Assembly (NCBI GenBank): GCA_030531085.1
Contig: JAUNOM010000008.1
Coordinates: forward strand, 1 to 64,000
Direction: 5' to 3'
Length of the DNA stretch: 64,000 nucleotides
DNA from: Prevotellaceae bacterium
Lineage (GTDB): Bacteria > Bacteroidota > Bacteroidia > Bacteroidales > Bacteroidaceae
Shown piece after piece: positions 8,165 to 30,342 of the stretch; the first letter of the stretch is position 1; every line of letters begins with the position of its first letter. The notes beneath the pieces were generated by a model. The model was not told where the DNA came from. It did no database searches and saw only the letters and a list, made by a program, of their open reading frames with translations. The position numbers were made by a program, and so were the translations under genes.

Positions 8165-11122
<2,958 letters not shown>

Positions 11123-12642: not shown

Positions 12643-12687
12643 TGAACATGACATTTCCCTATTTGTAGGGGATAACATTTTAATCAA

Positions 12688-12748
12688 TCCGGCTCCATCC
12701 CGGTGATAGGAAGATACATTTCTATTACGGGGATGGAGCCGGATTTTT
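12688..12748 (+). terminator. Rho-independent terminator after the esterase gene
   Basis: The arms TCCGGCTCCATCCC (12688-12701) and GGGATGGAGCCGGA (12730-12743) pair perfectly over 14 bp, followed by TTTTTAT. It ends the rightward esterase transcript. It would also meet leftward transcripts from the minus-strand promoter at 12904-12911 inside the adjoining inverted-repeat segment. Confidence 0.85.
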
Positions 12749-12871
12749 ATGTGCTTTCGTCTGTATTAAAGTTTGTGGAAAAAACAAGTGTGAACAAATT
12801 CTGTCAGTTGTGTATTTCCTCACCTTGGAACGTGGTGACGGTGTATGTTTGGTAGAATAGTGAAAAATGCT

Positions 12872-13077
12872 TGTTTTCTTCCTGTAAAACGATTATTCTG
12901 CTGCAAAGTTAATATATTTTCTTTAAATTCACGCAATTTCGTTCGATTTTTTTCCTACAGCAATTAATCTTTTTTATAAAAGAACTGTAAAAGTTTGACA
13001 AACGTCAGCTAACATCTCCTACAATCCACAGAAATATAGCGTGATATGCGCCGTAATCGTTTTACAGGAAGAAAACA
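12872..13077. promoter_or_regulatory. Putative invertible promoter segment upstream of the polysaccharide operon
   Basis: Perfect 24-bp inverted repeats at 12872-12895 and 13054-13077 (the left one reads TGTTTTCTTCCTGTAAAACG then ATTA) bound a 158-bp interior. A Bacteroidota -7 box lies at 12904-12911 on the minus strand, firing left across the left repeat, away from the NusG-like gene at 13227. Inverting the segment would place the promoter facing the operon. This layout is that of the phase-variable capsule promoters of Bacteroides fragilis, flipped there by the Mpi recombinase. No recombinase gene is in this window, so any invertase acts in trans. Of the other bases in the gap 12643-13226, 13078-13226 would be the leader; it holds a 5-bp stem (AGCCG 13178-13182, CGGCT 13190-13194). 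Confidence 0.7.
12904..12911 (-). promoter_or_regulatory. Leftward -7 box (TAACTTTG) inside the invertible segment
   Basis: On the minus strand the sequence reads TTAACTTTGCAG, identical in its core to the -7 boxes at 1759-1766 and 41300-41307. The nearest -33 candidate is TTG at 12934-12936 (spacer 22 bp). Transcription would begin around 12897, at the edge of the left inverted repeat. No leftward gene follows, which fits an OFF position of a switch. Confidence 0.6.
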
Positions 13078-13226
13078 GGCGTACCGCATTGTAGTCTCCT
13101 GTTATATGAGTATGGATATATGTACAAAATCCCTTCCTTTATGGAAAAGTGTTTTTTGAACCTTATGTTCCGGGCCAAGCCGCCTCAGTCGGCTCTTACC
13201 CCTGACATAAAATAGTGTGAGCGAAT

Positions 13227-14297
13227 ATGCATCTGGACAGAACAGTCTCTCATTCTATACCGCCGTCCCTGGTCAAGCGCCTCCCAGTCGGCATCCATGT
13301 TATTGAGCCTTCCTCCGTGGTAGGTTCAGAGGTGGAGAAGTGTCCATACCCCAATCTCCCCTGGAGCTACCTTTTCATCCACCACCGTAAGATGGACCAG
13401 CTCGCCGCCCGTTTGAGTCATGACGGCATCCCTTTCTTTATCCATCGCACCGTGCACTACCAGCGCAAGCGTCGCGGCGGTGTGAGGGAGGTTGAGCGTC
13501 CGACAGTGAGCGGCCTCGTGTTCCTTCAGGGTGACAGCACAGAACTCCAGCGTTATCTTAACGACCGTTTCCCCTCGCATTATCTTGTAAAGGACTGCAG
13601 CACAGGCCTTCCCGCCGTAATCCCCCACAGCCGCATGGAGCCCTTCATGCGTGTTGTAGACAGTGACCCCTCGCGTGTCCGCTTCCTTCTGAAGCCCCTC
13701 CGCCACTACGCCGACGGCAACACCCGCCTCCGCATAGTCAGCGGTTTCCTGAAGGGTTTCGAGGGTTACATCATCCGCATAGACCGAGACCGCCGCCTTG
13801 TTATGGACATTGGCGGCATGACCGTAGCCATCAGCGGCATCCACGGCGAGACATTCGAGGTAGTGCGTGACAACATCCCCACCGCCGTTGGCACATCGTC
13901 CAGCGCAGAAACAGTAAAACCGTCAGTGCACCGCGCATTGAGTTCCATTCAGGAGCGCATAGACGCGTCTTTCCTTACACCACGCACATCCAGTGATATA
14001 TGTTCCATAGTAAATGAGATAGAACTGTGGCAGGAGCGTGCCATGATGTACTCTGCCAAAGGCGATTATAAAACCGCCGCCGAGATTCTGTTCTTCCTGA
14101 TAGAGAATGTGGACTATCACTATTCCAATATTATCAGTCCCGACATCACCCCAATAATGACTGCCGTCCATATCATCTGGTCTCTTGTGGACAGAATATT
14201 AGGTAACGAGGACATTACCGATGACACTCGCAGTATGATAGAGTCGGAGAAAGTCAGTCATCAGTTAATGTTTGGGTATCTTATCGGTAAGGAATGA
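13227..14297 (+). CDS. NusG/UpxY-like transcription antiterminator with C-terminal extension
   Basis: This 356-residue protein has an N-terminal NusG-like half (PWSYLFIHHRKMDQLAARL; TVSGLVFLQGDSTELQRYL; PAVIPHSRMEPFMRVV) and a KOW-type segment at about residues 168-215 (RLRIVSGFLKGFEGYIIRID, then MDIGGMTVAISGI). In Bacteroides the UpxY proteins heading capsule loci bind the transcript leader and stop RNA polymerase from terminating in these long operons. The position, first gene after the inverted-repeat segment and before the polysaccharide genes, supports that role. UpxY proteins are usually near 170-180 residues; here about 140 more follow, helical in look, of unknown function. No UpxZ gene follows. 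Confidence 0.8.
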   Translation: MHLDRTVSHSIPPSLVKRLPVGIHVIEPSSVVGSEVEKCPYPNLPWSYLFIHHRKMDQLAARLSHDGIPFFIHRTVHYQRKRRGGVREVERPTVSGLVFLQGDSTELQRYLNDRFPSHYLVKDCSTGLPAVIPHSRMEPFMRVVDSDPSRVRFLLKPLRHYADGNTRLRIVSGFLKGFEGYIIRIDRDRRLVMDIGGMTVAISGIHGETFEVVRDNIPTAVGTSSSAETVKPSVHRALSSIQERIDASFLTPRTSSDICSIVNEIELWQERAMMYSAKGDYKTAAEILFFLIENVDYHYSNIISPDITPIMTAVHIIWSLVDRILGNEDITDDTRSMIESEKVSHQLMFGYLIGKE

Positions 14298-14452
14298 GGG
14301 AAGAAATCTATAAAGGTATGTATATGATTATACAATAAGAACATACCAGTTACAGTAAATTTCATACTTATAATGCATTCTATTATGTTATTCTTGTAGT
14401 GTTAAGAAAACTTTAATAATTTAGACCATAGGGCTTAAATAATAAATATATT

Positions 14453-14881
14453 ATGAAATTACCACCTTCAGAATTCGTGAAATTCTTTCCAATGAAATAT
14501 GGGCTGGACTTTCTCACATCAAGTGCATTGTACTTTTCTTCAAGTCAAGAATTCAATGATCCATTTGAGTTCTTACCGCAAATGAAGAATGCAAATGACT
14601 TTAGGAATATGGTATGTAATATAAACAAGGAGATGTATTACATTAACACAAAAGACAAACATATCAAAGAACGAAATAAAGAAAATTCTTTTTCCTTTTC
14701 TGCTCCATTTTTGGGTGGCGCTGCATTCATGCTTACAAAAAGTCCTTTGACTTTCAATCCTGTTGTATTATCAGTTTTGGCAGAATCTTTCAATGCGAAA
14801 GTCAAGCATTTCAGAGCACAACTTCGGGGCATCATTGACAAGAAATTCTTTCTCTTCAGACTAACAAGATTGTATGCTTAA
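14453..14881 (+). pseudogene. DUF2971-like fragment, probably a decayed gene
   Basis: The open frame gives 142 residues. Its start (ALYFSSSQEFNDPFEFLP) is like the N-terminus of DUF2971 proteins, which normally run to 250-300 residues. The C-terminal part expected of the family (a LMW-HYA type motif) is absent. The next frame from 14874 adds only 65 unrelated-looking residues, so the gene is probably cut short or frameshifted. It is AT-rich, unlike the NusG-like gene before it, and lies where Bacteroides fragilis loci carry upxZ. The 155-bp gap before it has only a weak 7-bp hairpin (14315-14321, 14341-14347). It could still be an intact small gene of unknown function. Confidence 0.4.
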
Positions 14882-15109
14882 TCCACACACTTTTTCAGGT
14901 GAGCCATATCATTGGTATAGGAAGGGGAATGAAAGGCAACAGACGCATATCAAGTATAATATAGTTATAAAGACGGTCTATAGGTATATAAAGTGGAAAA
15001 CTATATTTAAATATTGTAGTGTCGTTTTTGGTTTTAGCCTTTTTGCTTCGATGGTCTGGGATGTAGAATAGTATATTCTGTGTATGGTAACCAGTCGATT
15101 ATAATATTT

Positions 15110-16654
15110 ATGTCAACTCAATCACAAGATAATAACAAGCGTATAGCGAAGAACACGCTATGCCTATACATACGGATGTTCGTAATGATGCTGACGGCAT
15201 TGTTCACATCCCGCATTGTGTTGGATGTGCTTGGTGCCGCAGACTACGGATTGAATAATGTCATAAGTGGAGTGGTTGTGCTATTTTCATTTTTGAACTC
15301 AGCATTACTTTCCGCCACACAGCGTTTCCTTAATTTCCATTTAGGACGCAAGGACTATAAACAGACAAAAGTTGTGTTCTGCATGAGCCTGAACACCTAT
15401 ATGCTTCTTTCTGTACTGGTGATAATTTTGGGAGAAACGCTCGGGTTATGGTTCGTTAACGCGCATCTTAATATTCCACAGGAAAGAATGTATGCAGCGC
15501 AATGGGTATATCAGTTTACGCTAATACAGTTTGTTATCAATCTCCTGCGTGTTCCATATAACGCATCAATCATAGCATATGAGAGAATGAATTTCTTTGC
15601 CTATGTGTCGTTGGTTGAAGTCATAGCCAAACTTGCGGTTGTCTACCTTTTATATGTTACGACATTTGACAAACTTGTATTCTATTCATTCCTTTATACC
15701 ATTGTTCCGTTCATCATAACGTTAGTGTATAAACTGTATTGTAACAGGCATTTTGATACAACGAAATACAAGGCAATTTGGGACAGGACGGCCTTTAAAG
15801 ATATATTCAGTTTCTCAGGCTGGTCTTTGTTTGGAAGCCTTGCCAATCTCTCGGCTCAGCAGGGATTGAACATTCTCATCAATATTTTTTACGGAGTAAC
15901 AGTGAATGCTGCGGCAGGAATAGCAAATCAAGTGTCTCAAAACGTTTATGGATTCATATCCAATTTCCAGACAGCTTTTCAGCCACAGATAGTCAAGACA
16001 TTCGCAACAAAAGAAGTGGAACGATTCCATAAGTTGATATTCCAGACTTCCAAGTTCTCATATTTTATGGTACTTATATTAGTTTTGCCTATACTGTTTA
16101 CATTGGACGGATTATTGGAGATATGGTTAAAGCAGGTTCCGGAATATACGGCTATTTTCTGCAGGTTGATATTGATATTCCTTTCAATAGAGGCTGTCAC
16201 AGCTCCATTATGGATGTCTGTACAGGCAACAGGTAAGATACGTAACTATCAGATATTGATGGCAAGTCTTATTTTCTTGAATTTCCCCATAGCATATATT
16301 GTTTTGAAAATTGGATTGCCGGTTTATACAGTGTGGATTGTGCGCATCATAGTAAATTTATTAACAATGATGGCAAGATGCGTATATATGAAAATGAAAT
16401 TGGATTTTCCGTTGCTTCCTTATCTTCATAATGTGGTAATGCCTGTTGTGTGCGTTACCGTTGCAGCCTTGCCCATACCGATAATCTTGCATTATTGTAT
16501 TTCTGGATTTTGGATGAATCTAATTGTAGTAGGCATTACAACAATGCTGGTAACAATATTGGATGTATATTTTATAGGTATGAACGCACATGAGAAAGGG
16601 ATGGCTCGCAATATGATATTTAAGAAAATCCCACTATTAAAATCAAAATCATAA
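15110..16654 (+). CDS. Polysaccharide flippase (Wzx-like)
   Basis: This 514-residue integral membrane protein has about 12-14 hydrophobic segments and the N-terminal pattern of Wzx/oligosaccharide flippases in Bacteroidota (SRIVLDVLGAADYGLNNVI, then LLSATQRFLNFHLGRKD). Such proteins move the lipid-linked repeat unit from the cytoplasmic to the periplasmic face of the inner membrane. I chose the ATG at 15110 (MSTQSQDNNKRIAKNTL) because it matches the family start; an in-frame ATG ten codons upstream (15080) is possible. It opens the string of closely spaced AT-rich genes that runs to 29617 and, with the polymerase at 19005, defines a Wzx/Wzy-type pathway. Confidence 0.88.
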   Translation: MSTQSQDNNKRIAKNTLCLYIRMFVMMLTALFTSRIVLDVLGAADYGLNNVISGVVVLFSFLNSALLSATQRFLNFHLGRKDYKQTKVVFCMSLNTYMLLSVLVIILGETLGLWFVNAHLNIPQERMYAAQWVYQFTLIQFVINLLRVPYNASIIAYERMNFFAYVSLVEVIAKLAVVYLLYVTTFDKLVFYSFLYTIVPFIITLVYKLYCNRHFDTTKYKAIWDRTAFKDIFSFSGWSLFGSLANLSAQQGLNILINIFYGVTVNAAAGIANQVSQNVYGFISNFQTAFQPQIVKTFATKEVERFHKLIFQTSKFSYFMVLILVLPILFTLDGLLEIWLKQVPEYTAIFCRLILIFLSIEAVTAPLWMSVQATGKIRNYQILMASLIFLNFPIAYIVLKIGLPVYTVWIVRIIVNLLTMMARCVYMKMKLDFPLLPYLHNVVMPVVCVTVAALPIPIILHYCISGFWMNLIVVGITTMLVTILDVYFIGMNAHEKGMARNMIFKKIPLLKSKS

Positions 16655-16664
16655 TAGTTATAAA

Positions 16665-17900
16665 ATGAAAGAGATCTGTAATCTTTCAGAATGTACAGGC
16701 TGTATGGCTTGCGTGAATTGGTGCGCACATCATGCAATCTCTATAGTGCAAGATGAAGAAGGCTTTGACAGACCGCATATAGACGAGAGCCTATGTGTTG
16801 ATTGTGGACTATGCCAAAAGGTCTGCCCAATAAATACGCATCCTGTTGTTAATGAGCCTCTGAAAGTTCTCAGCGGATGGTCATCTGACGAATCTGTACG
16901 GCTCTGCAGTTCTTCAGGAGGTGCTTTCACAGAAATAGCCCGTCCAATATTGGAAGATGGAGGAGTCGTGTTTGGTTGTGTATTAAGCGAGGATCTAAAG
17001 GCCGAACATACCTATGTGGAGAATATGGAGGATTTGGCGGACAAACTCAGGGGCAGCAAGTATGTACAGAGCCGTATAGGGAACAGCTATTCACAGGCCA
17101 AAGATTTCTTGAGACAGGGCAGGAAACTCCTGTTCAGTGGTACTCCCTGCCAAATTGCAGGATTGAGAAATTATTTGCATAAAGATTATGAGAATCTGCT
17201 TACCGTGGATTTAATTTGTCATGGAGTGCCGTCTCCAATGATATTCGAGGAGTATAAAAAATATATGCAAGAGCATGAGAATATGGAACTTACGGATGTA
17301 ACGTTCCGTTGTAAAAAATCCAGCTGGATTTTTTACAACATGACCTTATCAGGTCATGTTGAAAAAAGCTCCGCCTTGAAAACATATTATGGAAGTTATT
17401 ATGAAGACCCATATATACGTGGATTCTTGCGTGATTATTTCTTGCGGCCATCTTGTCATCAATGTCATTTCACGTCCACCCAAAGATGCAGTGATTTTAC
17501 GATAGCGGATTGGTGGGGATATAAGAAAAAGTCAAAAGAAGATAAAAATTTTGCCTGCAATGGAGTAAGCTTGGTTTTGGCAAATACAGAAAAAGCCTTG
17601 AAACTATTGCCCTTAATGCATATGCAATTGCGTGAACGTACGATTGATGAAGCCAAACGCACAAATATCAGTCTTTCTCATCCTTTTCCCATTACGGAAT
17701 ACCGTAATGCTTTTTGGGCTGATTATAAGAAAATGTCTTTCGGGCAGATTGTAGAAAAATACATGATGCCAGAAAGAATAAGTTGGGATGTGAATATAAG
17801 GCAGCATTATAAGAATACGGACACGTTGTTATTACTGCTTTTCATAGCAACATTACCACAAAAAATTATTAAGTATATAAAGAAACATATATATAAATAA
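16665..17900 (+). CDS. Coenzyme F420 hydrogenase beta-subunit-like iron-sulfur protein
   Basis: This 411-residue protein starts with two 4Fe-4S ferredoxin motifs (C10, C13, C16, C20; then C44, C47, C50, C54), followed by FrhB N- and C-terminal domains (SSGGAFTEIA; KLLFSGTPCQIAGLRNYL; DLICHGVPSP; FTIADWWGYKK). In methanogens this fold carries flavin and reduces F420. In polysaccharide loci of Bacteroidota the same fold often sits beside a pyruvyl transferase, as here (24 bp upstream of it); its exact reaction there is not settled. A redox step on a sugar or on an Fe-S-dependent modification is possible. It lies 10 bp after the flippase gene, in the same operon. Confidence 0.82.
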   Translation: MKEICNLSECTGCMACVNWCAHHAISIVQDEEGFDRPHIDESLCVDCGLCQKVCPINTHPVVNEPLKVLSGWSSDESVRLCSSSGGAFTEIARPILEDGGVVFGCVLSEDLKAEHTYVENMEDLADKLRGSKYVQSRIGNSYSQAKDFLRQGRKLLFSGTPCQIAGLRNYLHKDYENLLTVDLICHGVPSPMIFEEYKKYMQEHENMELTDVTFRCKKSSWIFYNMTLSGHVEKSSALKTYYGSYYEDPYIRGFLRDYFLRPSCHQCHFTSTQRCSDFTIADWWGYKKKSKEDKNFACNGVSLVLANTEKALKLLPLMHMQLRERTIDEAKRTNISLSHPFPITEYRNAFWADYKKMSFGQIVEKYMMPERISWDVNIRQHYKNTDTLLLLLFIATLPQKIIKYIKKHIYK

Positions 17901-17923
17901 TACATTTTAAACATTTTACCATC

Positions 17924-19000
17924 ATGCTATACGAATTTATAATTTATTGGAAACGCATCTTTAAAATGTTGTTGTCAACTCGAAACAAAATTTATGTATT
18001 ATGTCATCCGATTCATCCTAATTTAGGTGACCAAGCACAATTGATGTGCACAGATTTGTGGATCAAAAAAAATTATCCAAAATATCAGATTGTTCATCTT
18101 GGCTTTTTCAAACCGACACTTTGTCTGATCAATGGAAATCAATCAATAGTTACAGAATTTTCATATAGAATAACATTGTCTGTACTGAGATTGATTATAC
18201 GTAAGGATGACTTGTTTATCGGACATAGCGGTTACTTTATGGTTGATCATCATAATGGCTACAAAATGTTTACAGATATAATGGGGTATTTTCCTAATCA
18301 CAAAATGGTTATTTTCCCACAAACAATAAAATTTCATACACCTGCAGTTATTGATTTTGTAACGAATGTTTTTTCTAAAAATAAGAATACTATATTAATG
18401 TGCAGGGATGAGATTTCATTTGAGAAAGCTAAAATGCTGTTCCCGACAACTCCATTGTTACTATATCCAGATATTGTTACGTCACTGATAGGTACACGCA
18501 ACAATAATCATAATAAACGTGACGGTGTGTTGTTCTGTATGCGTGATGATCTGGAATCTTATTACGCCCCTCAGGATGTGGATGCACTGATAGAACGTTT
18601 TAGAGATGTTCGAAAAGAAAAAGTGGATACAACTATAAAGGGGCTTTCTATAAAGGAACTAGATAGTAATCGGGATGTTATTATTAATGATATGATTGAT
18701 AAATTCTCAACTTATAAGGTGGTTATCACAGATCGTTATCATGGTACAATATTCTCCGCTATAGCATCGACTCCTGTTGTAGTTATAAGTTCTGCAGACC
18801 ATAAATTAAGTAGCGGTGTGAAATGGTTCCCTAAAGATATATTTGGCGATACTGTGCAGTATGCACAATCATTAGATGAGGCATACGAAATAGCATCCTC
18901 ATTGCTGAAAGCAGAAGGGCGAAAGTACTGCAATCCACCATATTTCAAGGAAAAATATTGGGATAATCTTAAAAAAAACTTGCCTGATTTTTATCTTTGA
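17924..19000 (+). CDS. Polysaccharide pyruvyl transferase family protein
   Basis: The 358 residues fit the WcaK/CsaB pyruvyl transferase family. The N-terminal HPNLGDQAQ (residues 31-39) is the usual N-x-GD motif region, and TDRYHGTIFSAIASTPVV with the R-Y-H-G block at 271-274 is the family's C-terminal signature. These enzymes transfer pyruvate from phosphoenolpyruvate to a sugar as a ketal, adding negative charge to the polymer. No signal or membrane segment is seen, so it acts at the cytoplasmic face. It follows the F420-hydrogenase-beta-like gene by 23 bp and precedes the polymerase gene by 4 bp. Base composition is strongly AT-rich. Confidence 0.85.
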   Translation: MLYEFIIYWKRIFKMLLSTRNKIYVLCHPIHPNLGDQAQLMCTDLWIKKNYPKYQIVHLGFFKPTLCLINGNQSIVTEFSYRITLSVLRLIIRKDDLFIGHSGYFMVDHHNGYKMFTDIMGYFPNHKMVIFPQTIKFHTPAVIDFVTNVFSKNKNTILMCRDEISFEKAKMLFPTTPLLLYPDIVTSLIGTRNNNHNKRDGVLFCMRDDLESYYAPQDVDALIERFRDVRKEKVDTTIKGLSIKELDSNRDVIINDMIDKFSTYKVVITDRYHGTIFSAIASTPVVVISSADHKLSSGVKWFPKDIFGDTVQYAQSLDEAYEIASSLLKAEGRKYCNPPYFKEKYWDNLKKNLPDFYL

Positions 19001-19004
19001 ATTT

Positions 19005-20222
19005 ATGACAAATGAACAAAAAATAAGTGTCAGCATTTATTCAGCTACAATAGTATCCATCTTGATAGCGTCCTTTTGGGGATTGTTCATGTTTGCACCT
19101 CCAATAGTAAAAGGTGTAATGGCGATAGGCATGTGGACGAGTGTATTGTTCGTGCCTGTTGCTTTGTATAGGAAGAACGATTTCTCAAGACGTGCGAACC
19201 TCGTTTTAAGGGCATTGCTGATTCTGGGCGTTTATGAAATATTGGTGTCTGTATTCAATACAGACGCTTCAATGTATGCTTTGGGCAATAAATGGATTAC
19301 CCTTTTCGGAAATGAATACACGGCTCTGATATTGATGCCGCCGCTTTTTACTTATATCGGGAGCAGCCTATATGGAGTGAAGAAATTGAAAAAGGCAACC
19401 TGCCTGTTCTTAGTATGTGGCGCGCTCTTTTCTTTAGCTTTAAAATATCCGCTGGCCTTTCTCACCACGTTTGTTATTGTGTTTTATCCTTATGTAGGGA
19501 AAAAATATAAATGTCTTATAGGTTTGGTGTTTGTTGAAGCTATTATAAAGGCTACGATGGGCGATAATCCCACACGTATGTTTCTGATAATTATACCCTT
19601 TTCCATTATCGTAATTCTTTTTTTATATGTGATTAAAAGTGAAAGAATAAAGAAATGGTTCGTAGTAGCCGTTACAGTGGCTCCACTTATACTGTTCGTT
19701 CCTATGCTTATGGCTAATAATGGGGAAGAGTCCTTCTTTCAAAAAGCCAATCTCTATATTGTGGAAAAAACAGATGATGACGGTTTGGCAAGTGATACGC
19801 GAACATTTTTATATTTGGAAATGGCAGAAGATTTGACACATACTAATTCATGGCTATTGGGTAAAGGAGCTTTCTCACATTATTATTCTTTGTACTTTGA
19901 CCAGTCTTCTAATGGAAAATACGGAAGGATTAGTTCTGAGGTGCCATTGCTTAATTACCTGTTACGAGGAGGCCTTATTTACGTGCTGCTTTATTTCGGA
20001 CTTATTCTTATTGGTGCTTATAATGCTATTTTTAATGGAAAGAACAAGTTTGTGCAGTCAATTGGGATTATGGCTTTATGTTGGTATTTCAACAGCTTCG
20101 TTGGAGATATAATAGGATGTCGGTTCTATCACGTGGCCTTCTTTATTCTTCTTGGCTGTACACTGTCACCTAAATTGTTAAATATGTCGGATCAGAAAAT
20201 TAAGCGGATATTGATGAATTAA
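19005..20222 (+). CDS. O-antigen polymerase-like membrane protein (Wzy)
   Basis: This 405-residue protein has about ten hydrophobic segments and a larger loop before the last ones (about residues 240-320) containing LLGKGAFSHYYSLYF, like the periplasmic loop of Wzy polymerases and O-antigen ligases. Wzy joins flipped repeat units in the periplasm. Sequence conservation in this group is low, so the call rests on topology, loop position and context. It starts 4 bp after the pyruvyl transferase gene stop. Confidence 0.78.
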   Translation: MTNEQKISVSIYSATIVSILIASFWGLFMFAPPIVKGVMAIGMWTSVLFVPVALYRKNDFSRRANLVLRALLILGVYEILVSVFNTDASMYALGNKWITLFGNEYTALILMPPLFTYIGSSLYGVKKLKKATCLFLVCGALFSLALKYPLAFLTTFVIVFYPYVGKKYKCLIGLVFVEAIIKATMGDNPTRMFLIIIPFSIIVILFLYVIKSERIKKWFVVAVTVAPLILFVPMLMANNGEESFFQKANLYIVEKTDDDGLASDTRTFLYLEMAEDLTHTNSWLLGKGAFSHYYSLYFDQSSNGKYGRISSEVPLLNYLLRGGLIYVLLYFGLILIGAYNAIFNGKNKFVQSIGIMALCWYFNSFVGDIIGCRFYHVAFFILLGCTLSPKLLNMSDQKIKRILMN

Positions 20223-20255
20223 ATAAATCCATATATCTTACAATATTATACTATT

Positions 20256-21245
20256 ATGACACGTCAAGAATCAAAGGCTATCAATTCACTCAGATTTATT
20301 TGTATTGTTTTTCTCGTTTTTCTGCATACAAGAGTTACTCATCTTATAGACTTCTCTATTAAAGATTCCATGAGCGGAGTAGAGAATTTTATGAATATTC
20401 CATTTTTGCAGATATTATTTGTATTAAGTGGATATTTGTTCTTCTATACTCATGGGGGGGCAAATCGGAAAGACTGGATACAGAATGTATGGAAAGAAAA
20501 ACTGCGCAAGAGGATAAAGACATTGCTTATTCCTTATATAATATGGTGCTTGGTTGCCATCATCTACAATCATTTTATATTGCACAAGGTCTTTCCTGAC
20601 AGCATATCCGATTTCTTCATGCAATTTTGGGATGCTGGTGCTGGACATCCGATAGGAAAAGCCATGTGGTATATGAAGAGCCTTATCTTGTTCTCATTAT
20701 TGTCACCATTATATTATTATGCTGTAAAATGGCTGAAACACTTTGTTTTGGTAATAGTATTGCTTGTCATCGTATGTTTTAATATTCCTATAGACTATCC
20801 GTATTTTAATGTTTATATTCTGTTAGGATCATATCTTGCAATCATCGGATTGTCTTTTTACGATATAGTAAAAAGTGTTGATTGGCGTTGCTGTCTCGCA
20901 GTATACTTATTATTTAAAGTACTTTTCCTGACAGGTGTATTGGATTTGAATGTTTTTTTGCCAATAGATTTATGTTGCTTCATAGGGCTGTTTGGGCTCT
21001 TAATGAAGTATGACATCCCTCCTGTTGTGGCGGCATCAAGCTCATTTGTCTATTTCGTTCATCCTTTCGTACAGGGTGTAAGAAATATTTTCATTCGCTT
21101 TGTAGACACTTCATCACTCTCTTCGTGTTTCTGTGTATGGATGCTGACTGCATTGACCGTTATGACTGTATGTTCAGCATTATTCTTTTTTATGAAACGT
21201 TTTACACCAAAATATTTAAGTGTGTTGACGGGAGACAGAATATAA
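20256..21245 (+). CDS. Acyltransferase family 3 membrane protein
   Basis: The 329 residues form about ten membrane segments. The start INSLRFICIVFLVFLHTRVTH is the family opening with its conserved His after the first segment. The loop AMWYMKSLILFSLLSPLYYY is also typical. Such proteins O-acetylate (or otherwise acylate) sugars of surface polymers. It lies 33 bp after the polymerase gene in the operon. A second acyltransferase of this kind, more distant, is at 39684. Confidence 0.85.
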   Translation: MTRQESKAINSLRFICIVFLVFLHTRVTHLIDFSIKDSMSGVENFMNIPFLQILFVLSGYLFFYTHGGANRKDWIQNVWKEKLRKRIKTLLIPYIIWCLVAIIYNHFILHKVFPDSISDFFMQFWDAGAGHPIGKAMWYMKSLILFSLLSPLYYYAVKWLKHFVLVIVLLVIVCFNIPIDYPYFNVYILLGSYLAIIGLSFYDIVKSVDWRCCLAVYLLFKVLFLTGVLDLNVFLPIDLCCFIGLFGLLMKYDIPPVVAASSSFVYFVHPFVQGVRNIFIRFVDTSSLSSCFCVWMLTALTVMTVCSALFFFMKRFTPKYLSVLTGDRI

Positions 21246-21299
21246 AAACAATTTATGGGGGAGTATGTAGTTGATAGTATAATAAATAACCTCTAAACA

Positions 21300-22514
21300 A
21301 TGAACATAGCTGTATTACATTCGGGCAATGCTGGCTTCTTTCCACGGTATTATTGTGCTTTGGTGAGTGCTGCTCAAACAGAGGGGAATGAGATAGCTCT
21401 TTTCTCTCCTAACAGTGGGCGAAACAGGCGTAACAGGTTGCCATGTCAGATAACTTGGGGAACACGTTTGAATTGGTTCGTTCACTCACGGTTGTATAAA
21501 CTTACGGGCATGGAGGATGTTTTCTCCTTTTGGGAAACAATGGCTCTCCTTTTTAAATTAGAAAAATATGTCCCTGATGTCATACATCTCAATCTTGTAA
21601 ATGATAAGATCATAAATATGCCCTTGTTTACTTATTATGTAAACAAAAGGAATATTCCTGTAGTCTGGACCATGCACGACTGTCGAGCCTTTACGGGCGG
21701 TTGTCCTTATTTCGATGAGATAGGTTGTGACCGGTGGAAAACAGGGTGCGGTCAATGTAAACAAAGTAAGACATGGATAGACGGAACGCACATCGTGTGG
21801 AAAATACGTAGGCGCTGGCATGCTGGTATTAAGAACCTGACAATAGTCACTCCGTCAGAGTGGCTTGCCAGTTTTGTCAGGGAGTCGTTTCTTGGCAAGC
21901 ATCCCATAAAAGTGATATACAACGGGGTTGATACCACATCATTCTCAAAGCCAAGCAATTTAGATGTTCGCAGTAAATATAATATTGCCAATAATAAGAA
22001 AATAGTATTAGGATGTGCCATTAATTGGGAAGCTAGAAAAGGCCTGCATTTCTTTGAAACATTGGCAGACATGCTGCCTTCTGACTATCAGATTGTTCTT
22101 GTCGGTGGAATAGATGCAATCCGCCAAGGCCGTCTTAAGAAGAAAGGCGTTATTTGTACGGGGCGTACTTCCACATTAGATGAGATGGTGGCGTGGTATC
22201 AGCGTGCATCTGTATTCTGCAATCCCACGTTGGCAGACAATTTCCCTACCACAAACATCGAGTCACTTGCAGCAGGAACGCCGATAGTTACATTCCGTAC
22301 AGGAGGTAGTCCTGAGACCGTTGACGATAAGACAGGCATTGTGATTGAGCAAGGAAATATTCAGGCACTTAGCGAAGCAGTGCAAACAATCTGTGAGCAT
22401 CGCGACAGATATACTTCTGATGCTTGCTATACTCGCTCACAGATGTTTTCAGATGTAAATTATAAGGAATATATAAAATTGTTTTATTCCGTGAAAATTT
22501 TTTTTGATGAATAG
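21300..22514 (+). CDS. Glycosyltransferase family 4
   Basis: This 404-residue GT-B enzyme shows HDCRAFTGGCPYFDEIGCDRW in the N-terminal domain, a pattern seen in GT4 enzymes of the WcaC type. The C-terminal donor-binding block is NIESLAAGTPIVTFRTGGSPE with the E-x7-E-type arrangement. It should add one sugar from a nucleotide donor to the growing lipid-linked repeat unit at the inner face of the membrane. Donor and linkage cannot be told. It is followed after 3 bp by another glycosyltransferase gene. Confidence 0.88.
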   Translation: MNIAVLHSGNAGFFPRYYCALVSAAQTEGNEIALFSPNSGRNRRNRLPCQITWGTRLNWFVHSRLYKLTGMEDVFSFWETMALLFKLEKYVPDVIHLNLVNDKIINMPLFTYYVNKRNIPVVWTMHDCRAFTGGCPYFDEIGCDRWKTGCGQCKQSKTWIDGTHIVWKIRRRWHAGIKNLTIVTPSEWLASFVRESFLGKHPIKVIYNGVDTTSFSKPSNLDVRSKYNIANNKKIVLGCAINWEARKGLHFFETLADMLPSDYQIVLVGGIDAIRQGRLKKKGVICTGRTSTLDEMVAWYQRASVFCNPTLADNFPTTNIESLAAGTPIVTFRTGGSPETVDDKTGIVIEQGNIQALSEAVQTICEHRDRYTSDACYTRSQMFSDVNYKEYIKLFYSVKIFFDE

Positions 22515-22517
22515 GTT

Positions 22518-23573
22518 ATGACAAAACTTCTTGTTATTTCAGATATCCGTAGTAACTCAGTCAATGGTGTTTCGACAGGTCATTATGTTCCTGTTGCACG
22601 AATGTATGCAAAATTATTTGCAGGTATTGTTAATGTAAAAGTTGCAGGAGGGACGGTATATGCTAACTATTTTAGTGATACGGAATTGTTGTCTCTACCT
22701 TATTCTGTCTCTCATACGTCTTTGTTGGGACGATTGAATATCTTAAAGAATTGTAGAGCTTTGTTTGGGTATAACAAAGGAAATATAATTGTAATGCAGC
22801 ATAGTGCTGTAGTAACTGCTCTGATTGGAATATTCTTGTTTTATCATGGAAATTCCAATCTTTATATGATTTTATATAATAATGAAGCAAAACGTTCTTT
22901 TATAAGCCGATGTTTTTTTGGCTTGGTTAAAACTAAAATATCAGGAATTATATGTCCAAATGATGACATTGGTCGTTTGTATAATCTTCCTTACTGTGTT
23001 GTGCCTGACTATATATATGTAGGTGATAGTAATAAACAACCTTTGTTGGCATTTGAAGATAAAACTTATGACTTTTGTATTGTAGGTAGAATTGCTCCTG
23101 GTAAGGGAGTTGTAGAGTGTGCAAGGAAATTAGTTGGTTCGCATTATAAGATTCTTATTGCAGGTAAACCAGAGAATGAGATATTAGAGAACGCATTATA
23201 TGAAGTGTGCCGTAAAGCTGATAATATAACGCTAAGATTTGGATATGTTTCAGACGAAGATTATTCTTCATATTTATCTCAAAGCAGATATACGATTTTA
23301 AATTATCAGGGAGAATATTCTAAGAGAAGTAGTGGTGTCGTATATGATACTATTTTTGCTGGCGTCCCTGTTATCGGATGTCGTTGTTCCGCACTTCAGT
23401 TCGTAGAGGATGAGCATATCGGTTATCTATATGATTCTCTTGATGATTTTGATGTCTCAAAAGTTATGAAGTGTGAACGATATAATGATTATTTAAAGGC
23501 AATAGATTTATATAGAGCTAAGCACAAGGAATATAGAATAAAACTCGAACAATTTCTAAAAATTAAAGAATAA
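22518..23573 (+). CDS. Glycosyltransferase (GT-B fold, GT4-like)
   Basis: The 351 residues have a divergent N-terminal half (MTKLLVISDIRSNSVNGVST) and a recognisable C-terminal Rossmann half: FCIVGRIAPGKGVVECARKL, then FGYVSDEDYSSYLSQSRYTI and VVYDTIFAGVPVIGCRC. It probably adds a sugar to the repeat unit. The gene is very AT-rich. It starts 3 bp after the preceding glycosyltransferase and ends 2 bp before the next gene, so translation is probably coupled. Confidence 0.78.
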   Translation: MTKLLVISDIRSNSVNGVSTGHYVPVARMYAKLFAGIVNVKVAGGTVYANYFSDTELLSLPYSVSHTSLLGRLNILKNCRALFGYNKGNIIVMQHSAVVTALIGIFLFYHGNSNLYMILYNNEAKRSFISRCFFGLVKTKISGIICPNDDIGRLYNLPYCVVPDYIYVGDSNKQPLLAFEDKTYDFCIVGRIAPGKGVVECARKLVGSHYKILIAGKPENEILENALYEVCRKADNITLRFGYVSDEDYSSYLSQSRYTILNYQGEYSKRSSGVVYDTIFAGVPVIGCRCSALQFVEDEHIGYLYDSLDDFDVSKVMKCERYNDYLKAIDLYRAKHKEYRIKLEQFLKIKE

Positions 23574-23575
23574 AT

Positions 23576-24196
23576 ATGTCTGATAATATTTACATATTCA
23601 ATATGTGGGGAGGCTCACGAGCCCAATCCGTATTCAATGTTATAGTTTATTGTTGGAGGTTGTGGCGTACTTCATTATGTCAACTTAGTTATATGCTGTG
23701 TTCAAAAAAGAAGAAGCAATTAATAATGAGTGATGTTGGCACTTATGCGAATCTTATTAGTATGCTCGTTTTTTTCAAGTATTATAGAACACTATTTTAT
23801 CATCGGTTAGGAAAAAAGTCTATTCTTATCTCATGGTTACTCTCTGGAGATAAAACAGTTATAGTACCATTCAGTACCCCTATAGGAAGATCTGCGAATT
23901 TCATACATAATTATGGTTCGCATCTTAATGCCAAATCTATTGGCGATAATTTTCGTTGTTATCAATATGTAGTTATGGGTAACAAGCGTTTTAGAGACAA
24001 AGGTAGACCTGTTATTGGCAATAATGTAACCTGTGCAACAGGGGTTGTTATTGTTGGAGATATTACAATTGGTAATAATGTGCAAATAGCAGCAAATGCC
24101 TTTGTGAATAGATCTATACCTGATAATTGTGTGGTTATGGGAAACCCTGCAAGAATTGTCAAACGTGATGGAATATCCATAGAATGTAAGATTTAA
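23576..24196 (+). CDS. Serine acetyltransferase-like hexapeptide transferase
   Basis: The 206 residues have a helical N-terminus and a C-terminal left-handed beta-helix made of hexapeptide repeats (IGRSANFIHNYGSHLNAKSIG; IGNNVTCATGVVIVGDITIG; NNVQIAANAFVNRSIPDNCV) closing with VVMGNPARIVKRDG. The arrangement is like CysE-type acetyltransferases used in polysaccharide loci, so O-acetylation of a sugar of the repeat unit is likely. The start at 23576 is 2 bp after the preceding stop; the ATG at residue 10 (MWGGSRAQS) is an alternative. Confidence 0.8.
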   Translation: MSDNIYIFNMWGGSRAQSVFNVIVYCWRLWRTSLCQLSYMLCSKKKKQLIMSDVGTYANLISMLVFFKYYRTLFYHRLGKKSILISWLLSGDKTVIVPFSTPIGRSANFIHNYGSHLNAKSIGDNFRCYQYVVMGNKRFRDKGRPVIGNNVTCATGVVIVGDITIGNNVQIAANAFVNRSIPDNCVVMGNPARIVKRDGISIECKI

Positions 24197-24263
24197 AAGG
24201 ATGTTACCATAAAATGTATGGTGGAAATTTTATAGAACATAAAGGATACGATCGTTTATAAGA

Positions 24264-24443
24264 ATGTCGGTTATGTTTCATTTTGGAGTTCAGAAAAAAC
24301 GAGGAGATAGAGCGGACTATCTAGCATCTGTATTATCTCCCAAACAGTATCCGTGTTATATTCTTGTTTTTAATGATAATTGGAATGATTATGGTTTACT
24401 ATACATGGTTTTGTCTGTATTATATTCAATCAAAAATAGATAA
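24264..24443 (+). CDS. Possible small ORF of 59 residues in the operon gap
   Basis: The 354-bp gap between the two hexapeptide transferase genes holds this frame (it begins MSVMFHFGVQKKRGDRADYL). I do not recognise it. It is strongly charged at the start and aromatic later (YPCYILVFNDNWNDYG), which looks more protein-like than random AT-rich sequence. It could be a remnant of a larger gene or a chance frame. The rest of the gap (24197-24263, 24444-24550) shows nothing I can name. Confidence 0.25.
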   Translation: MSVMFHFGVQKKRGDRADYLASVLSPKQYPCYILVFNDNWNDYGLLYMVLSVLYSIKNR

Positions 24444-24550
24444 AAACCGTATGTTTTTTGTTTAATGAACTCTGAAAGCATCTGTGTATCAATGGTTATG
24501 ACAATATAGTTAAACTTTGTGAGTAAATTTATACATAAATATACATTATA

Positions 24551-25067
24551 GTGAAAAGGATTTATTTATTTTTGTACTATGCACTACTGCAACATATTCC
24601 TATGCAGCCAATGCCTGGGTATAGAATTGGCTATATTCTAAGATATTGGGTGGTAAAACATATTCTTGGTAATCGCTGTGGAACAGATGTAGTGGTGAAA
24701 GATTGTTGCTATTTTGGTAACGGAAGTAGGCTAACGGTAGGTGACAGAAGTCAATTGGGGCAGAATGCCAGATTGAATGGTAGAATTACTATTGGGGCTG
24801 ATTGTCTGATGGGACCTGATGTAGTGATGATGGCAACCAGCCACGGCTATGAAAGGACTGATATTCCAATGATACAACAATTAGGTTGGTAGAAAGCAAT
24901 AAAGATTGGTAATAATTGTTGGATTGGTACAAGATGCATTATACTTCCTGGCGTAGAAATTGGAGACAATTGTATTGTTGGCAGTGGAGCTGTTGTAACA
25001 CGTTCCTTTCCTGCCAACAGTATAATTGGGGTGGGTACCTGCAAGATTACTTAAAACGAGAAAATGA
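24551..25067 (+). pseudogene. Broken WcaF-like acetyltransferase (in-frame TAG and frameshift)
   Basis: A GTG start gives 113 residues of a hexapeptide O-acetyltransferase (LTVGDRSQLGQNARLNGRI; GPDVVMMATSHGYERTDIPM), which then meet a TAG at 24890-24892. The same frame continues after the stop with the missing half (KIGNNCWIGTRCIILPGVEI; VVTRSFPANSIIG). A second lesion, one extra base in the run at 25028-25035, throws the end out of frame. The shifted frame reads VPARLLKTRK and stops at 25065-25067, overlapping the next gene's ATG as ATGA, like the other junctions of this operon. So the intact ancestor ended exactly there. The gene is probably inactive, unless the TAG is read through. Confidence 0.82.
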
Positions 25068-26374
25068 AGAAAACAATGAATAGAATAGAATTATTTAACA
25101 AACTGATAGTCTTAATTCAGAAATATAGTATTCCTTATGCTATTGTAGGACGCACAGAAGAATATCCAACGAATATTGGCAGTGATATAGATATTGTAAT
25201 ACCACGTAATAGGATATCTGATTTTCACCGAATGATTTGGGAGATTGAAGATGAAAATACAAAAGTGGTTCAAATGTTCCAGCATGAGATAGTTGCATTC
25301 TATTATGTGGTTTTTCATTTTGACGGTAATGAACGCATCTATATACAACCTGATGTTTGTACAGACTATTATCGTAAAGGACGTTTGTTATTGACAGCAG
25401 ACTATTTGTTACAAGGGTATAGAGAAGCAACTCAAGGAGGGTTTAATGTTCTATCCTCGGAAAAGGAATTTATCTATTATCTATTAAAGAAAATAGACAA
25501 AAGGAAGCTGTCAAAGGATCAGTTTGGACATATACGCTATTCTTATTTAGAAAATAGAGATGCTGCAAAGACAGAAGCTTCAGCATTTTGGATGGATGAT
25601 GATTCGAGCATCATATTTCAATCACTTGACAAAAATGATTATGAACTAATGTTGTCAAACTTGGAACGACTGCAAGAGGGTATACATTCATCACATAGAA
25701 AAAGAATGTCGGATATAGTAAAAGATATTTATCTGAAATTTAGTAGAATCATAAAGCCGACAGGATTTGTAATTGCTGTTATGGGACCTGACGGAAGTGG
25801 AAAAACTACTGTAATGAATCAATTTAAGGAAGACATAGAGCCAGCATTCAGAAGAATACAGCAGTTTCATCTGTTCCCAATACCGCAAACTGGGAAAGAA
25901 CAGGTGAATGAGAATCCACATGGCAAGAAGAAACGTGGTTTCATTCTTTCTTTCATGAAACTTATTTATTTCATTTTGATCTATACTTTAGGATATTTGA
26001 AATTAGTTGCTCCTAAGAAAATACGTAGCACGCTGACAATTTTCGACAGATATTATGATGATATATTGGTTGACCCCATACGATATAGGAATGGAACCCT
26101 GCCGTTTGTAGTGAAGATATTCCGTTTGTTTATTCCTAAACCAGAATTGTGGTTTTTCTTAGATTGTCCTACAGATGTTATTCAGGCACGTAAATCTGAA
26201 GTGTCTCCAGAGGAGACGGAACGACAAAGGAAAACATACTTACGACTTGCTGAAACCAAAAAGAACAGTATTATATTGAATACAAATAGAGACGTAAAAG
26301 AAATCTCTATAGAAGCTTGCCGATGTATTTGCGACATATTGAATAAACGTGCAATAAAGAGATATAAACGATGA
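25064..26374 (+). CDS. Nucleotidyltransferase-like plus thymidylate-kinase-like fusion protein
   Basis: This 436-residue protein has two parts. The N-terminal part carries GSDIDIVIP (Gly39-Ser40, Asp41 and Asp43), the signature of the pol-beta-type nucleotidyltransferase fold. The C-terminal part has a P-loop GPDGSGKTT (241-249) and FDRYYDDILVDP, like thymidylate kinases. Similar proteins occur in surface-polysaccharide loci, where no reaction has been firmly shown to my knowledge; phosphorylation of a sugar or a lipid carrier is possible. Its ATG overlaps the end of the broken acetyltransferase by 4 bp, and it overlaps the next gene by ATGA. Confidence 0.72.
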   Translation: MKKTMNRIELFNKLIVLIQKYSIPYAIVGRTEEYPTNIGSDIDIVIPRNRISDFHRMIWEIEDENTKVVQMFQHEIVAFYYVVFHFDGNERIYIQPDVCTDYYRKGRLLLTADYLLQGYREATQGGFNVLSSEKEFIYYLLKKIDKRKLSKDQFGHIRYSYLENRDAAKTEASAFWMDDDSSIIFQSLDKNDYELMLSNLERLQEGIHSSHRKRMSDIVKDIYLKFSRIIKPTGFVIAVMGPDGSGKTTVMNQFKEDIEPAFRRIQQFHLFPIPQTGKEQVNENPHGKKKRGFILSFMKLIYFILIYTLGYLKLVAPKKIRSTLTIFDRYYDDILVDPIRYRNGTLPFVVKIFRLFIPKPELWFFLDCPTDVIQARKSEVSPEETERQRKTYLRLAETKKNSIILNTNRDVKEISIEACRCICDILNKRAIKRYKR

Positions 26375-27597
26375 AAATCCTTTTATTAGCATATGCGTGC
26401 GAACCAGACAGAGGTTCCGAACCAGGGGTGGGGTGGAAATGGGCTTTAAATTTAGCCAAAGACAGAACTAAAGATATATATGTATTGACAAGAAGCAACA
26501 ACAGGGAAAGTGTTGATGCTTATTGGACAAAGAATATTTGTCCTAATAATCTCCATTTTTTCTACTATGACTTGCCCACGCCATTTATATGGGGTAAGCA
26601 TCATGGTCTGCCGGTGAATATTTATTATTCTATATGGTTGCAGGGATGTGTTGGGTATATGCTGGAATTACATATGAAGTTTGAATTTGATATGGTACAT
26701 CATATCACTTTTGGTGTGTATAGAGATGTATGCCCTATCTATAAATTAAAAATTCCTTATGTGCTTGGTCCGTTGGGAGGAGGAGAGGCCACTCCATCTG
26801 GAATGATGAAAATGTACTCAGTAAAAGAGACTGTAAGTGAAAGATTTAGAGGTCTTGTTAATAAAATATCTTTATTGAATCCATGCTTGCACAAATCATT
26901 TGACCACGCTTCTTTAATATTCACAAAGACAAAAGAGACTCAAACCACACTTCACAAATGGAGATACAAAACATTGATTAATCTTGAAATAGGAATAGAT
27001 AAGACTTATAAACAAAATAAACAGGAACGAGATAAAGAACTATTTATTTTTGTAGGGCGTTTCGTACATTGGAAAGGCGTAAAACTCGCATTAAAAGCTT
27101 TCTGTATATTTCAAAAGGCGCATCCATCTGCAAAGATGCTTTTCATTGGCAAGGGTGATATGCAATCGTATATCAATAGAATTGCGATGGAAAACGGACT
27201 GGATAACAATATTCAGATTATTCCATGGATAAGTCAGAAAGAACTTGCATTTTATTATGATAAAAGTTGTGCAATGCTTTTCCCCAGTCTTCATGATAGC
27301 AGTGGTAATGTTGTCTTGGAAGCATTGTCCCATGGTTTGCCCGTAATATGTTTGGATTGTGGTGGTCCTGTTGGTATTCTTGGGGATAATCTTATGGAGA
27401 TGGTGGAGCCTACAGCAAACAGGTCTGTAGATTGTGTCGCAAATGGATTGGCAATGAAAATGGCAATGCTGTCTTCTGATTCATTAAAATATAGTGGTAT
27501 CAGTAGAAAATGCTTGGAGCGTGCGGGCATGATGCTATGGGAAAATACAATATCAAATACCTATAAGTTAATTGAAGAAAAGTTATCTTTACAATGA
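26371..27597 (+). CDS. Glycosyltransferase family 4
   Basis: This 408-residue GT-B enzyme starts MKILLLAYACEPDRGSEPGV, a common opening of GT4 members in Bacteroidota polysaccharide loci. The C-terminal donor site shows FVGRFVHWKGVKLALKAF, FPSLHDSSGNVVLEALSHG and CLDCGGPVGIL. It should transfer one sugar to the repeat unit. It overlaps both neighbours by ATGA, which suggests tight translational coupling. Confidence 0.88.
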   Translation: MKILLLAYACEPDRGSEPGVGWKWALNLAKDRTKDIYVLTRSNNRESVDAYWTKNICPNNLHFFYYDLPTPFIWGKHHGLPVNIYYSIWLQGCVGYMLELHMKFEFDMVHHITFGVYRDVCPIYKLKIPYVLGPLGGGEATPSGMMKMYSVKETVSERFRGLVNKISLLNPCLHKSFDHASLIFTKTKETQTTLHKWRYKTLINLEIGIDKTYKQNKQERDKELFIFVGRFVHWKGVKLALKAFCIFQKAHPSAKMLFIGKGDMQSYINRIAMENGLDNNIQIIPWISQKELAFYYDKSCAMLFPSLHDSSGNVVLEALSHGLPVICLDCGGPVGILGDNLMEMVEPTANRSVDCVANGLAMKMAMLSSDSLKYSGISRKCLERAGMMLWENTISNTYKLIEEKLSLQ

Positions 27598-28505
27598 AAT
27601 TCTATCGTTTCAAGACATTTACAACATCTTATTATTTCCCCGAACTTGACAATGCACACCAATATATGTATGGTTTGTATAGTGCGTATGGTGGGCAGTT
27701 GTCAAGCGTTTATTGGTGGTTGTTCCGTAAATGTCGTATTGTAAGGTGGTTTTCTGTAGTTGACGAAAAGCGCCTGAATTTTCCTTATAGTCTTATCCGT
27801 AAGGTTGACGGCACCGATAGCTTGATGTCGTTTAATATGGGATCGCCAGGAGTAGAACAGAAGATATCTATCCTCGGTTATGATAATATTACAGCAGAAC
27901 CATTTTTTGCAAAGTTTTCTCAGAAACCTGCGGCTCGTAGTCTTACAGAAAATGAAATCCGGGTATATCGTATTTTGAATGAAACTATGCTTACGCCCAA
28001 GCTATTAGGATGTAGTCATGGTGAAGATTATGATTACCTAAAAGCCGAGTATATACCGGGTGCACGACCTCAGACACGAGAACTGACAGATGATGTGGTA
28101 CAGTTATGCTTAATGCTTGCACAGCATCATCTTACAGAGAAGCGGACAGATGCTTCAGAATTGACGATATGTTTATCACATGGTGATTTTTGTCCGTGGA
28201 ATATTCTTGTTTCTGATAAGGGAATGCGGCTCATAGACTGGGAACTGGCAGATGATCGTCCACTTGGTTTTGATTTGTTCACATATATATGTCAAGTTTC
28301 TGCATTATTCACTCCTGAAAAAACTCTACAGAAGAGTATAGATGAGGCAGACGAAAAAGTGAAGTATTATTTCAACGCTTTGGGGATTGTTGACTATCTG
28401 CCTTACCTGCGGGCTTTTGCAGAGGAGAAAATCGAATATGAACGTAGCAAGGGTAATAATCGCCTGCTTGTTAAATATGAAGAACTGTTATCAATATTAA
28501 TATGA
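27594..28505 (+). CDS. Aminoglycoside/choline-kinase-like phosphotransferase
   Basis: The 303 residues contain the catalytic block of the protein-kinase-like APH family: HGDFCPWNILV with His196-Gly197-Asp198, followed by RLIDWELADDRPLGFDLFTY, where the Asp of IDWE binds metal. The N-terminal lobe is short and divergent. In a polysaccharide locus the likely target is a sugar, choline, or a lipid-linked intermediate rather than an antibiotic. It overlaps the glycosyltransferase genes on both sides by 4 bp. It is one of two kinase-like products in this operon. Confidence 0.75.
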   Translation: MKFYRFKTFTTSYYFPELDNAHQYMYGLYSAYGGQLSSVYWWLFRKCRIVRWFSVVDEKRLNFPYSLIRKVDGTDSLMSFNMGSPGVEQKISILGYDNITAEPFFAKFSQKPAARSLTENEIRVYRILNETMLTPKLLGCSHGEDYDYLKAEYIPGARPQTRELTDDVVQLCLMLAQHHLTEKRTDASELTICLSHGDFCPWNILVSDKGMRLIDWELADDRPLGFDLFTYICQVSALFTPEKTLQKSIDEADEKVKYYFNALGIVDYLPYLRAFAEEKIEYERSKGNNRLLVKYEELLSILI

Positions 28506-29617: not shown

Positions 29618-30342
29618 TGTTACGATTGAAAGAATTACGTATCCTTGAAAGCCGGGACGCACTTGCTTCCATTCCGCAAGGCAAGAAGCTGATAAATACC
29701 ATTAATGCCCACTCTTTCAATACAGCTCAGCATGACGAGTTGTTTGCGGAGGCATTGAGGAATGGAGATTATCTGATTCCGGATGGAGCAAGTATAGTGA
29801 AGGCCTGTAGGTGGTTGAAGGCGAAGTCACAGCCAAAGGAGAGAGTTGCGGGGTGGGACCTGTTTGAGTTTGAGATGAACAGGCTCAACGAGACTGGTGG
29901 ACGCTGTATGTTCATGGGCAGTTCTCCCAAGGTGCTGGGACTGATAGTGGAGAAGGCTAAGGTGGTTTACCCGAACATAGAGGTAGTGACTTACTCTCCA
30001 CCTTACAAACCTGAGTTCACGGATGAGGAGAATAGGGCTATCATTGATGCCATAAATGCCGCCAATCCCGATTTGCTGTGGATAGGAATGACTGCTCCGA
30101 AGCAGGAGAAGTGGACATATTCTCATTGGAATGAGCTGAATATCCACTGTCATGTTGGAACGATAGGGGCAGTATTCGATTTCTTTGCCGGCACTTATCA
30201 GCGTGCTCCACGCTGGTGGCAGGAACATTCGTTGGAATGGCTGTACAGGTTGGTGAAGGAGCCTCGAAGGATGTGGCGCAGATATATAGTTGGCAATCCG
30301 CTGTTCCTATTGAATGTCAGACGTGAAAAGAGCAAGGGTTAG
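29617..30342 (+). CDS. WecG/TagA/CpsF family glycosyltransferase (GT26)
   Basis: The 241 residues match the WecG/TagA family: NTINAHSFNTAQHDELFAEA, PDGASIVKACRWL, LLWIGMTAPKQEKW and the hallmark GAVFDFFAGTYQRAPRWWQE. Family members transfer N-acetylmannosamine or its uronic acid to a lipid-linked first sugar; they bind the membrane through the C-terminus. Base composition shifts back to that of the flanking housekeeping genes, so this gene may belong to a conserved frame of the locus. As the last gene of the operon it is followed by the hairpin at 30443-30481. Confidence 0.9.
   Translation: MLRLKELRILESRDALASIPQGKKLINTINAHSFNTAQHDELFAEALRNGDYLIPDGASIVKACRWLKAKSQPKERVAGWDLFEFEMNRLNETGGRCMFMGSSPKVLGLIVEKAKVVYPNIEVVTYSPPYKPEFTDEENRAIIDAINAANPDLLWIGMTAPKQEKWTYSHWNELNIHCHVGTIGAVFDFFAGTYQRAPRWWQEHSLEWLYRLVKEPRRMWRRYIVGNPLFLLNVRREKSKG

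Follow-up and report, generated by a model that had tools for sequence, protein, structure and literature searches.

The interval 12869–13080 of the window (the whole 64,000-nt stretch analyzed here, positions 1–64,000 of contig JAUNOM010000008.1 of a Prevotellaceae bacterium) is probably a site-specific invertible promoter that is flipped in trans by a tyrosine recombinase, most likely the enzyme encoded on contig C10 of the same assembly. Judged by its anatomy, the sequenced copy appears to be OFF with respect to a polysaccharide operon headed by a gene for a UpxY-like antiterminator, and the switch is predicted to be one of at least four sites of the same repeat family.

Repeat Pair and Putative Promoter Box Upstream of the Antiterminator Gene

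The two arms of the inverted repeat (12869–12895, plus strand, with the core GTTTTCTTCCTGTAAAACG; 13054–13080, minus strand) are 27 nt long, 96% complementary and separated by 158 nt. Their 24-nt cores (12872–12895 and 13054–13077) are perfectly complementary, as the sequence-only reading of this DNA had described, and score 24 in the inverted-repeat search, whereas 30 Markov-shuffled versions of the 1.5-kb stretch before the gene scored 11 at best. The segment that is proposed to invert (12896–13053, 158 bp, 32% G+C) lies between the arms and contains a single match to TAnnTTTG, which we take to be the Bacteroidales-type −7 box. This match, TAACTTTG at 12904–12911, is on the minus strand, confirming that the box inside the segment reads leftward; it points away from the operon and, if flipped, would point toward 13227. 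The repeats thus enclose a short candidate-promoter segment with one −7 box, the corresponding −33 box being poor (ATTG at 22 bp). Under a Markov model of the segment, the chance of an outward box within 20 bp of an arm is about 3%, and a single locus therefore proves little; the comparison with relatives carries the weight.

The 5′ neighbor of the switch is an acetyl xylan esterase-like gene, which is followed by a hairpin (12686–12745, from the inverted-repeat search) that resembles a terminator. In the sequenced orientation, the box faces left, in the direction of this hairpin, so the operon would be OFF. It had also been proposed that no strong rightward promoter lies between 12749 and 13227. 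A rightward TAnnTTTG match, TATGTTTG, does lie immediately outside the left arm (12844–12851, plus strand), which slightly weakens the assignment of the OFF state; it has no TTG at 19–21 bp upstream, as read in the sequence, and may be a weak alternative promoter. The proposal is in part wrong on this detail. The density of such matches predicts about 0.2 per 480 bp on one strand. A leader (13081–13226, plus strand) connects the switch to the antiterminator gene.

The UpxY-like Gene and the Polysaccharide Operon

The gene at 13227–14297 (plus strand) encodes a putative UpxY/NusG-like antiterminator of 356 amino acids with an extra helical C-terminal domain. Its product matches NCBIfam model NF033644 (E = 3e-21) with 76 bits, short of the model cut-off of 100, and has no Pfam match at 0.001. 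The AlphaFold model (mean pLDDT 71, pTM 0.48) has five helices at the C-terminal end, and its best Foldseek neighbors are RfaH/NusG proteins, at E-values of 0.003 and weaker (none below 0.001), which is consistent with a NusG/RfaH-like fold. The extra domain (about 120 residues, encoded by 13932–14294) has no clear Pfam match; it is common to close UpxY relatives and missing in two shorter ones (G053, G077). The idea that this domain is a fused UpxZ was rejected, as only chance-level Pfam matches were obtained in four proteins and the neighbors in a single Foldseek search matched the NusG portion.

The second ORF (14453–14881, plus strand) encodes 142 amino acids, the last 34 of which resemble the end of an ISAon1-family transposase. 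UpxZ is often encoded by the second gene of such operons. No UpxZ model in Pfam, which presumably includes one, or in NCBIfam matched this ORF, and the gene next to the antiterminator in the second copy of the switch (see below) encodes a nucleotidyl transferase. The genes that follow (15080–30342, plus strand) encode MatE-like (below cut-off), FrhB-like, pyruvyl transferase, Wzy_C-like (below cut-off), acyltransferase, glycosyltransferase and WecG/TagA/CpsF family proteins. The operon is unidirectional from 13227 to 30342; its direction and polysaccharide content agree with the earlier description, whereas its length is about 17.1 kb rather than about 16 kb. Past 30342, a tRNA methyltransferase-like gene runs in the opposite direction.

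Orientation of Homologous Switches

A second switch is present on the contig of the window (C59:69551–69762), in the same orientation as the first. It is followed by a UpxY homolog that is 78% identical overall to the first UpxY-like protein, and by genes for nucleotidyl transferase, sugar kinase, epimerase and flippase-like proteins. Over 978 bp, the two loci, which are about 57 kb apart, are identical (window 12866–13843; C59:69548–70525), the leader included, and the identity breaks off abruptly inside the antiterminator gene, with divergence within the C-terminal domain. This pattern looks like a recent duplication or gene conversion of the switch, leader and NusG-like half, and may also be an assembly effect in which a repeat was collapsed.

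For comparison with relatives, 31 UpxY/NusG loci were used: the genome's own C5 locus, 29 others from among the matches returned, and one more in G125. Nine of these are close (about 37–47% identical; eight assessable) and 22 are distant (21 assessable), two loci having less than 120 bp of upstream sequence. An upstream repeat pair is present at four of the eight assessable close loci, and missing at the other four, versus none of the 21 assessable distant loci. The second close UpxY gene of G125 (C3) has one in-frame stop and no repeat pair. A third UpxY gene of the genome studied here, of the long type (L077 on C5, 12754–13851; 44% identity), lacks a repeat pair within the preceding 1.5 kb and perhaps marks a non-switching polysaccharide locus.

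In homologous modules composed of repeats, promoter and UpxY gene, the TAACTTTG box points toward UpxY in G060 and G125 (ON), and the boxes of G004 and G053 point away from it (OFF). The occurrence of homologous anatomy in both orientations is the strongest support for inversion of the segment. In 10 of 11 repeat pairs, one arm and no more than one has a TAnnTTTG that ends 25–34 bp from its outer end. The 10 complete switches (two on the contig of the window, three on C32 and C37, one on G060 C206, and the UpxY switches of G060, G125, G004 and G053) comprise four ON and six OFF, with an extra box elsewhere in three. The eleventh pair, which is weak and lies 388 bp 3′ of a G004 recombinase gene, has no box and is not taken as a switch. 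Together with the anatomy of the locus, the ON and OFF relatives support the original proposal of an invertible promoter that serves a polysaccharide operon behind a UpxY-like gene and was captured in the OFF state.

The Repeat Family in the Genome and Other Collections

A search of the genome for further copies of the 24-bp repeat, as had been suggested, revealed the second full switch and variant sites at the ends of contigs C5, C10 and C30. The pattern GTTTTCTTNNTGTAAAACR has six exact sites (the C5 start at bases 3–21, the C10 end, and four arms on C59) and one site with a single mismatch at the C30 end; the remaining match (C16) has two mismatches and is at control level, as the reversed control gave three. 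Three of the seven sites of the family are thus located at contig ends: C30 terminates exactly with its arm, and C10 terminates one base past its 42-nt site. Such positions would be expected if the segment were present in both orientations and thereby broke the assembly; at both C59 copies the assembly is unbroken. The first genes of C5 belong to the DUF3575, DUF3868, Fimbrillin_C and Mfa2 families, by which they are assigned to a putative type V (Mfa-type) pilus operon, and C30 and C5 would lie on either side of a third switch, that of the pilus.

With up to three mismatches, the repeat is found in four of 398 genus genomes, namely its own and three others that hold one site apiece (one for the reversed control). 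No ortholog of the whole switch was seen in the genus, 20 of 199 other genomes giving short promoter-box matches only, with three candidates scored per genome. In two further collections, from which records of the source genome were possibly left out, the exact repeat pattern has no match in viral_contigs and one lone site in genome_contigs, in a Traorella MAG. A tblastn search for UpxY in plasmids returned none. The suggestion that the repeat identifies a new invertase target is therefore borne out in part: the family recurs at switch-like loci of this genome, and sites within three mismatches occur in only three of the 397 other genus genomes.

Candidate Recombinases

The genome encodes candidates of both recombinase classes, for which a search had been recommended: 16 proteins match the tyrosine-recombinase model (13 above the cut-off) and two match the resolvase model. 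The recombinase gene at C10:59448–60659 encodes 404 amino acids (Phage_integrase, 40 bits), and a 42-nt site starts 57 bp after it. The core of this site agrees with that of the window repeat at 17 of 19 positions, with the mismatches confined to two center bases, so that the recombinase has beside it a site with the core of the distant repeats (six exact sites and one near site), the local site being one-armed. The single arm is itself a hairpin and may thus be a terminator.

The best matches of the C10 enzyme in the ON genomes G060 and G125 (49–50% identity) are encoded directly upstream of UpxY and of repeats with the core TTTCTTCTTGTAA, which is like that of the window at 12 of 13 positions. 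In a tree of 12 proteins, the three enzymes with a TTTCTTCTTGTAA-like core are separated from five enzymes beside TCTCTTnnnAAGAGA-like repeats with a support of 99/98; an equally clean split is obtained with shuffled labels in 20–23 of 500 cases, and the clustering of enzyme with core thus exceeds chance only modestly. For three more enzymes on the C10 side of the tree (in G053, G004 and G227), there is no repeat pair closer than 900 bp, and G004 and G053 carry the C10-type enzyme, but the repeats at their UpxY genes are of the other class.

Among homologs on mobile elements, 10 were examined from the 87 plasmid and 60 phage records matched. All 10 have a repeat pair at most 950 bp downstream, nine of the 10 have TAnnTTTG 27–43 bp from the arm end, and in two annotated plasmids UpxY comes after the recombinase and repeats. 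These plasmid matches and the protein families of the genome point to Bacteroidales as its order. Taken together, the sequences indicate that the invertase is likely a tyrosine recombinase acting in trans, not a serine recombinase.

It is unlikely that the promoter is flipped by another tyrosine recombinase, that is, one of the two on C32, the one on C37, the incomplete one on C1, or one missing from the assembly. Three tyrosine recombinases of about 400 amino acids (two on C32, one on C37) are each encoded just before their own complete repeat pair, and the enzyme family is accordingly present; their repeats are of the TCTCTTnnnAAGAGA type (that of C37 being a looser variant) and match that of the window over at most seven of nine positions, versus 17 of 19 for the C10 site. 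A fifth recombinase of this kind is broken off at the C1 end; with the genome being 81% complete, the assembly may lack yet another enzyme. The switches adjacent to the three recombinases are located at 8505–8681 and 13915–14114 of L065 (C32) and at 2703–2911 of L068 (C37); one is ON and two are OFF, and the C37 switch precedes a NusG-domain gene. In addition, a 268-amino-acid tyrosine recombinase on C43 (L070, 7526–8332 and 8375–9343) is encoded next to a 33-bp inverted repeat whose arms are 903 bp apart and which perhaps bounds a gene-sized invertible segment.

A very improbable alternative is that the switch is a fossil, once invertible and now locked, with the operon being transcribed from TATGTTTG outside the repeats or from another upstream promoter. 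Both C59 copies are in the OFF orientation, which counts against inversion, and are identical over the 978 bp; the box at 12844 would provide an outside start. However, decay would be expected to erode the arms, which still match perfectly along 24 bp; the remaining three sites of the repeat family are at the ends of contigs, where mixed orientations would place them; and the outside box is missing from the second copy, which has TATGTTCG at this position.

The sequence-only reading had named a serine recombinase as the enzyme that flips the segment, and capsule promoters of Bacteroides fragilis do use a serine invertase according to the available part of PMC4747536. The genome has two serine-recombinase family proteins, on C11 and C37. 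The two, encoded at L067 5266–5892 and L073 6409–7038, are 95% identical to each other. When the C11 protein is aligned with the solved DNA-invertase 4m6f (Gin), it has alanine at the serine column, presumably that of the catalytic residue, and FIA instead of RVS; the C37 protein has the same residues at these columns. Homologs are sporadic, occurring in 27 of 149 genus genomes including its own; the ON-facing G125 has one (48% identical), whereas the matches include none from G060, which is also ON, or from G053 or G004. No repeat pair of the window's family is found in the stretches examined around the homologs. The lack of the serine in both proteins and their sporadic distribution make them poor candidates, the G125 homolog notwithstanding, and a serine (Mpi-like) invertase as at the B. 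fragilis capsule loci is very unlikely to be the enzyme of this switch.

Proposed Mechanism and Relation to Known Systems

In the preferred reading, inversion by the C10 tyrosine recombinase, the enzyme would bind the GTTTT/AAAAC arms of each repeat, and strand exchange within the 8-bp center CTTCCTGT would flip the 158-bp segment. In the flipped state, TAACTTTG would be near 13040 and face right, with about 180 bp between it and the UpxY-like gene, the product of which would allow polymerase to read through the 17-kb polysaccharide operon. Further targets of this enzyme would be the identical second polysaccharide switch, the type V pilus switch and its own neighboring site.

In B. fragilis, UpxY works by transcriptional antitermination, as stated in the part of a review that was available (PMC12632263). 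Mpi of this species is a master serine invertase that acts in trans on small invertible promoters at several UpxY-led polysaccharide loci (PMC4747536; PMC12632263), and its repeats are ARACGTTCGTN (PMC8375218), as far as the available parts of these papers describe. The switches described here likewise are small candidate invertible promoters at UpxY-led polysaccharide loci; unlike at Mpi loci, a tyrosine recombinase is the candidate invertase, the second gene has no UpxZ match, and the repeat looks unrelated by eye. Neither of the two marks of an Mpi regulon, an active serine invertase and ARACGTTCGT-type repeats, is found: the serine is lacking and the repeat differs.

Tsr19 (BF2766) of B. 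fragilis is a tyrosine recombinase that inverts a promoter immediately downstream and a distant one, with a polysaccharide operon as target, according to the available parts of PMC4747536 and PMC3090145. The C10 enzyme resembles Tsr19 as described there: it too is a tyrosine recombinase with local and distant candidate sites and a proposed polysaccharide operon target, whereas the distant sites proposed here belong to one pilus operon and two polysaccharide operons led by UpxY. The plasmid modules of NZ_CP143950 (Parabacteroides distasonis) and pMMCAT (Bacteroides cellulosilyticus) likewise combine a site-specific integrase, repeat pairs with TAnnTTTG, and UpxY, and the integrase is 43% identical to the C10 enzyme. 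Unlike in the window, the plasmid recombinase is adjacent to the switch and the repeats resemble TCTCTTnnnAAGAGA, not GTTTTCTTnnTGTAAAAC. Enrichment of UpxY genes near invertons and capsule switches of B. intestinalis are also described in this literature (among PMC4747536, PMC12632263, PMC3090145, PMC8375218 and PMC11892184, in the parts available). The available part of PMC12959208 holds nothing further on these switches, and no paper listed in the literature searches describes, in its title or the opening of its abstract, the repeat or arrangement at 12869–13080.

A broader reading, which we regard as plausible but tentative, is that one tyrosine invertase runs a surface regulon that comprises four or more switches, namely those of two polysaccharide operons with UpxY and of a type V pilus operon as well as its own neighbor, in the role that Mpi has in B. 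fragilis. The two center bases of the sites, which are CC for polysaccharide and pilus and AA for the local site, would decide which arms pair, so that the enzyme could be common to all loci without the local site recombining with the rest. The 978-bp block would have been copied between the polysaccharide loci while the C-terminal domains stayed different. One enzyme may in this way shuffle the entire cell coat, as other gut bacteria related to this one are already known to do. If this broader reading is true, phase variation of polysaccharides and pilus would be under one tyrosine invertase with a recognition core that is readable from sequence; it would provide a testable rule, by which the enzyme subclass predicts the repeat core and orphan switches can be linked to their invertase, and it would mean that a global switch of the Mpi type can be run by another recombinase family.
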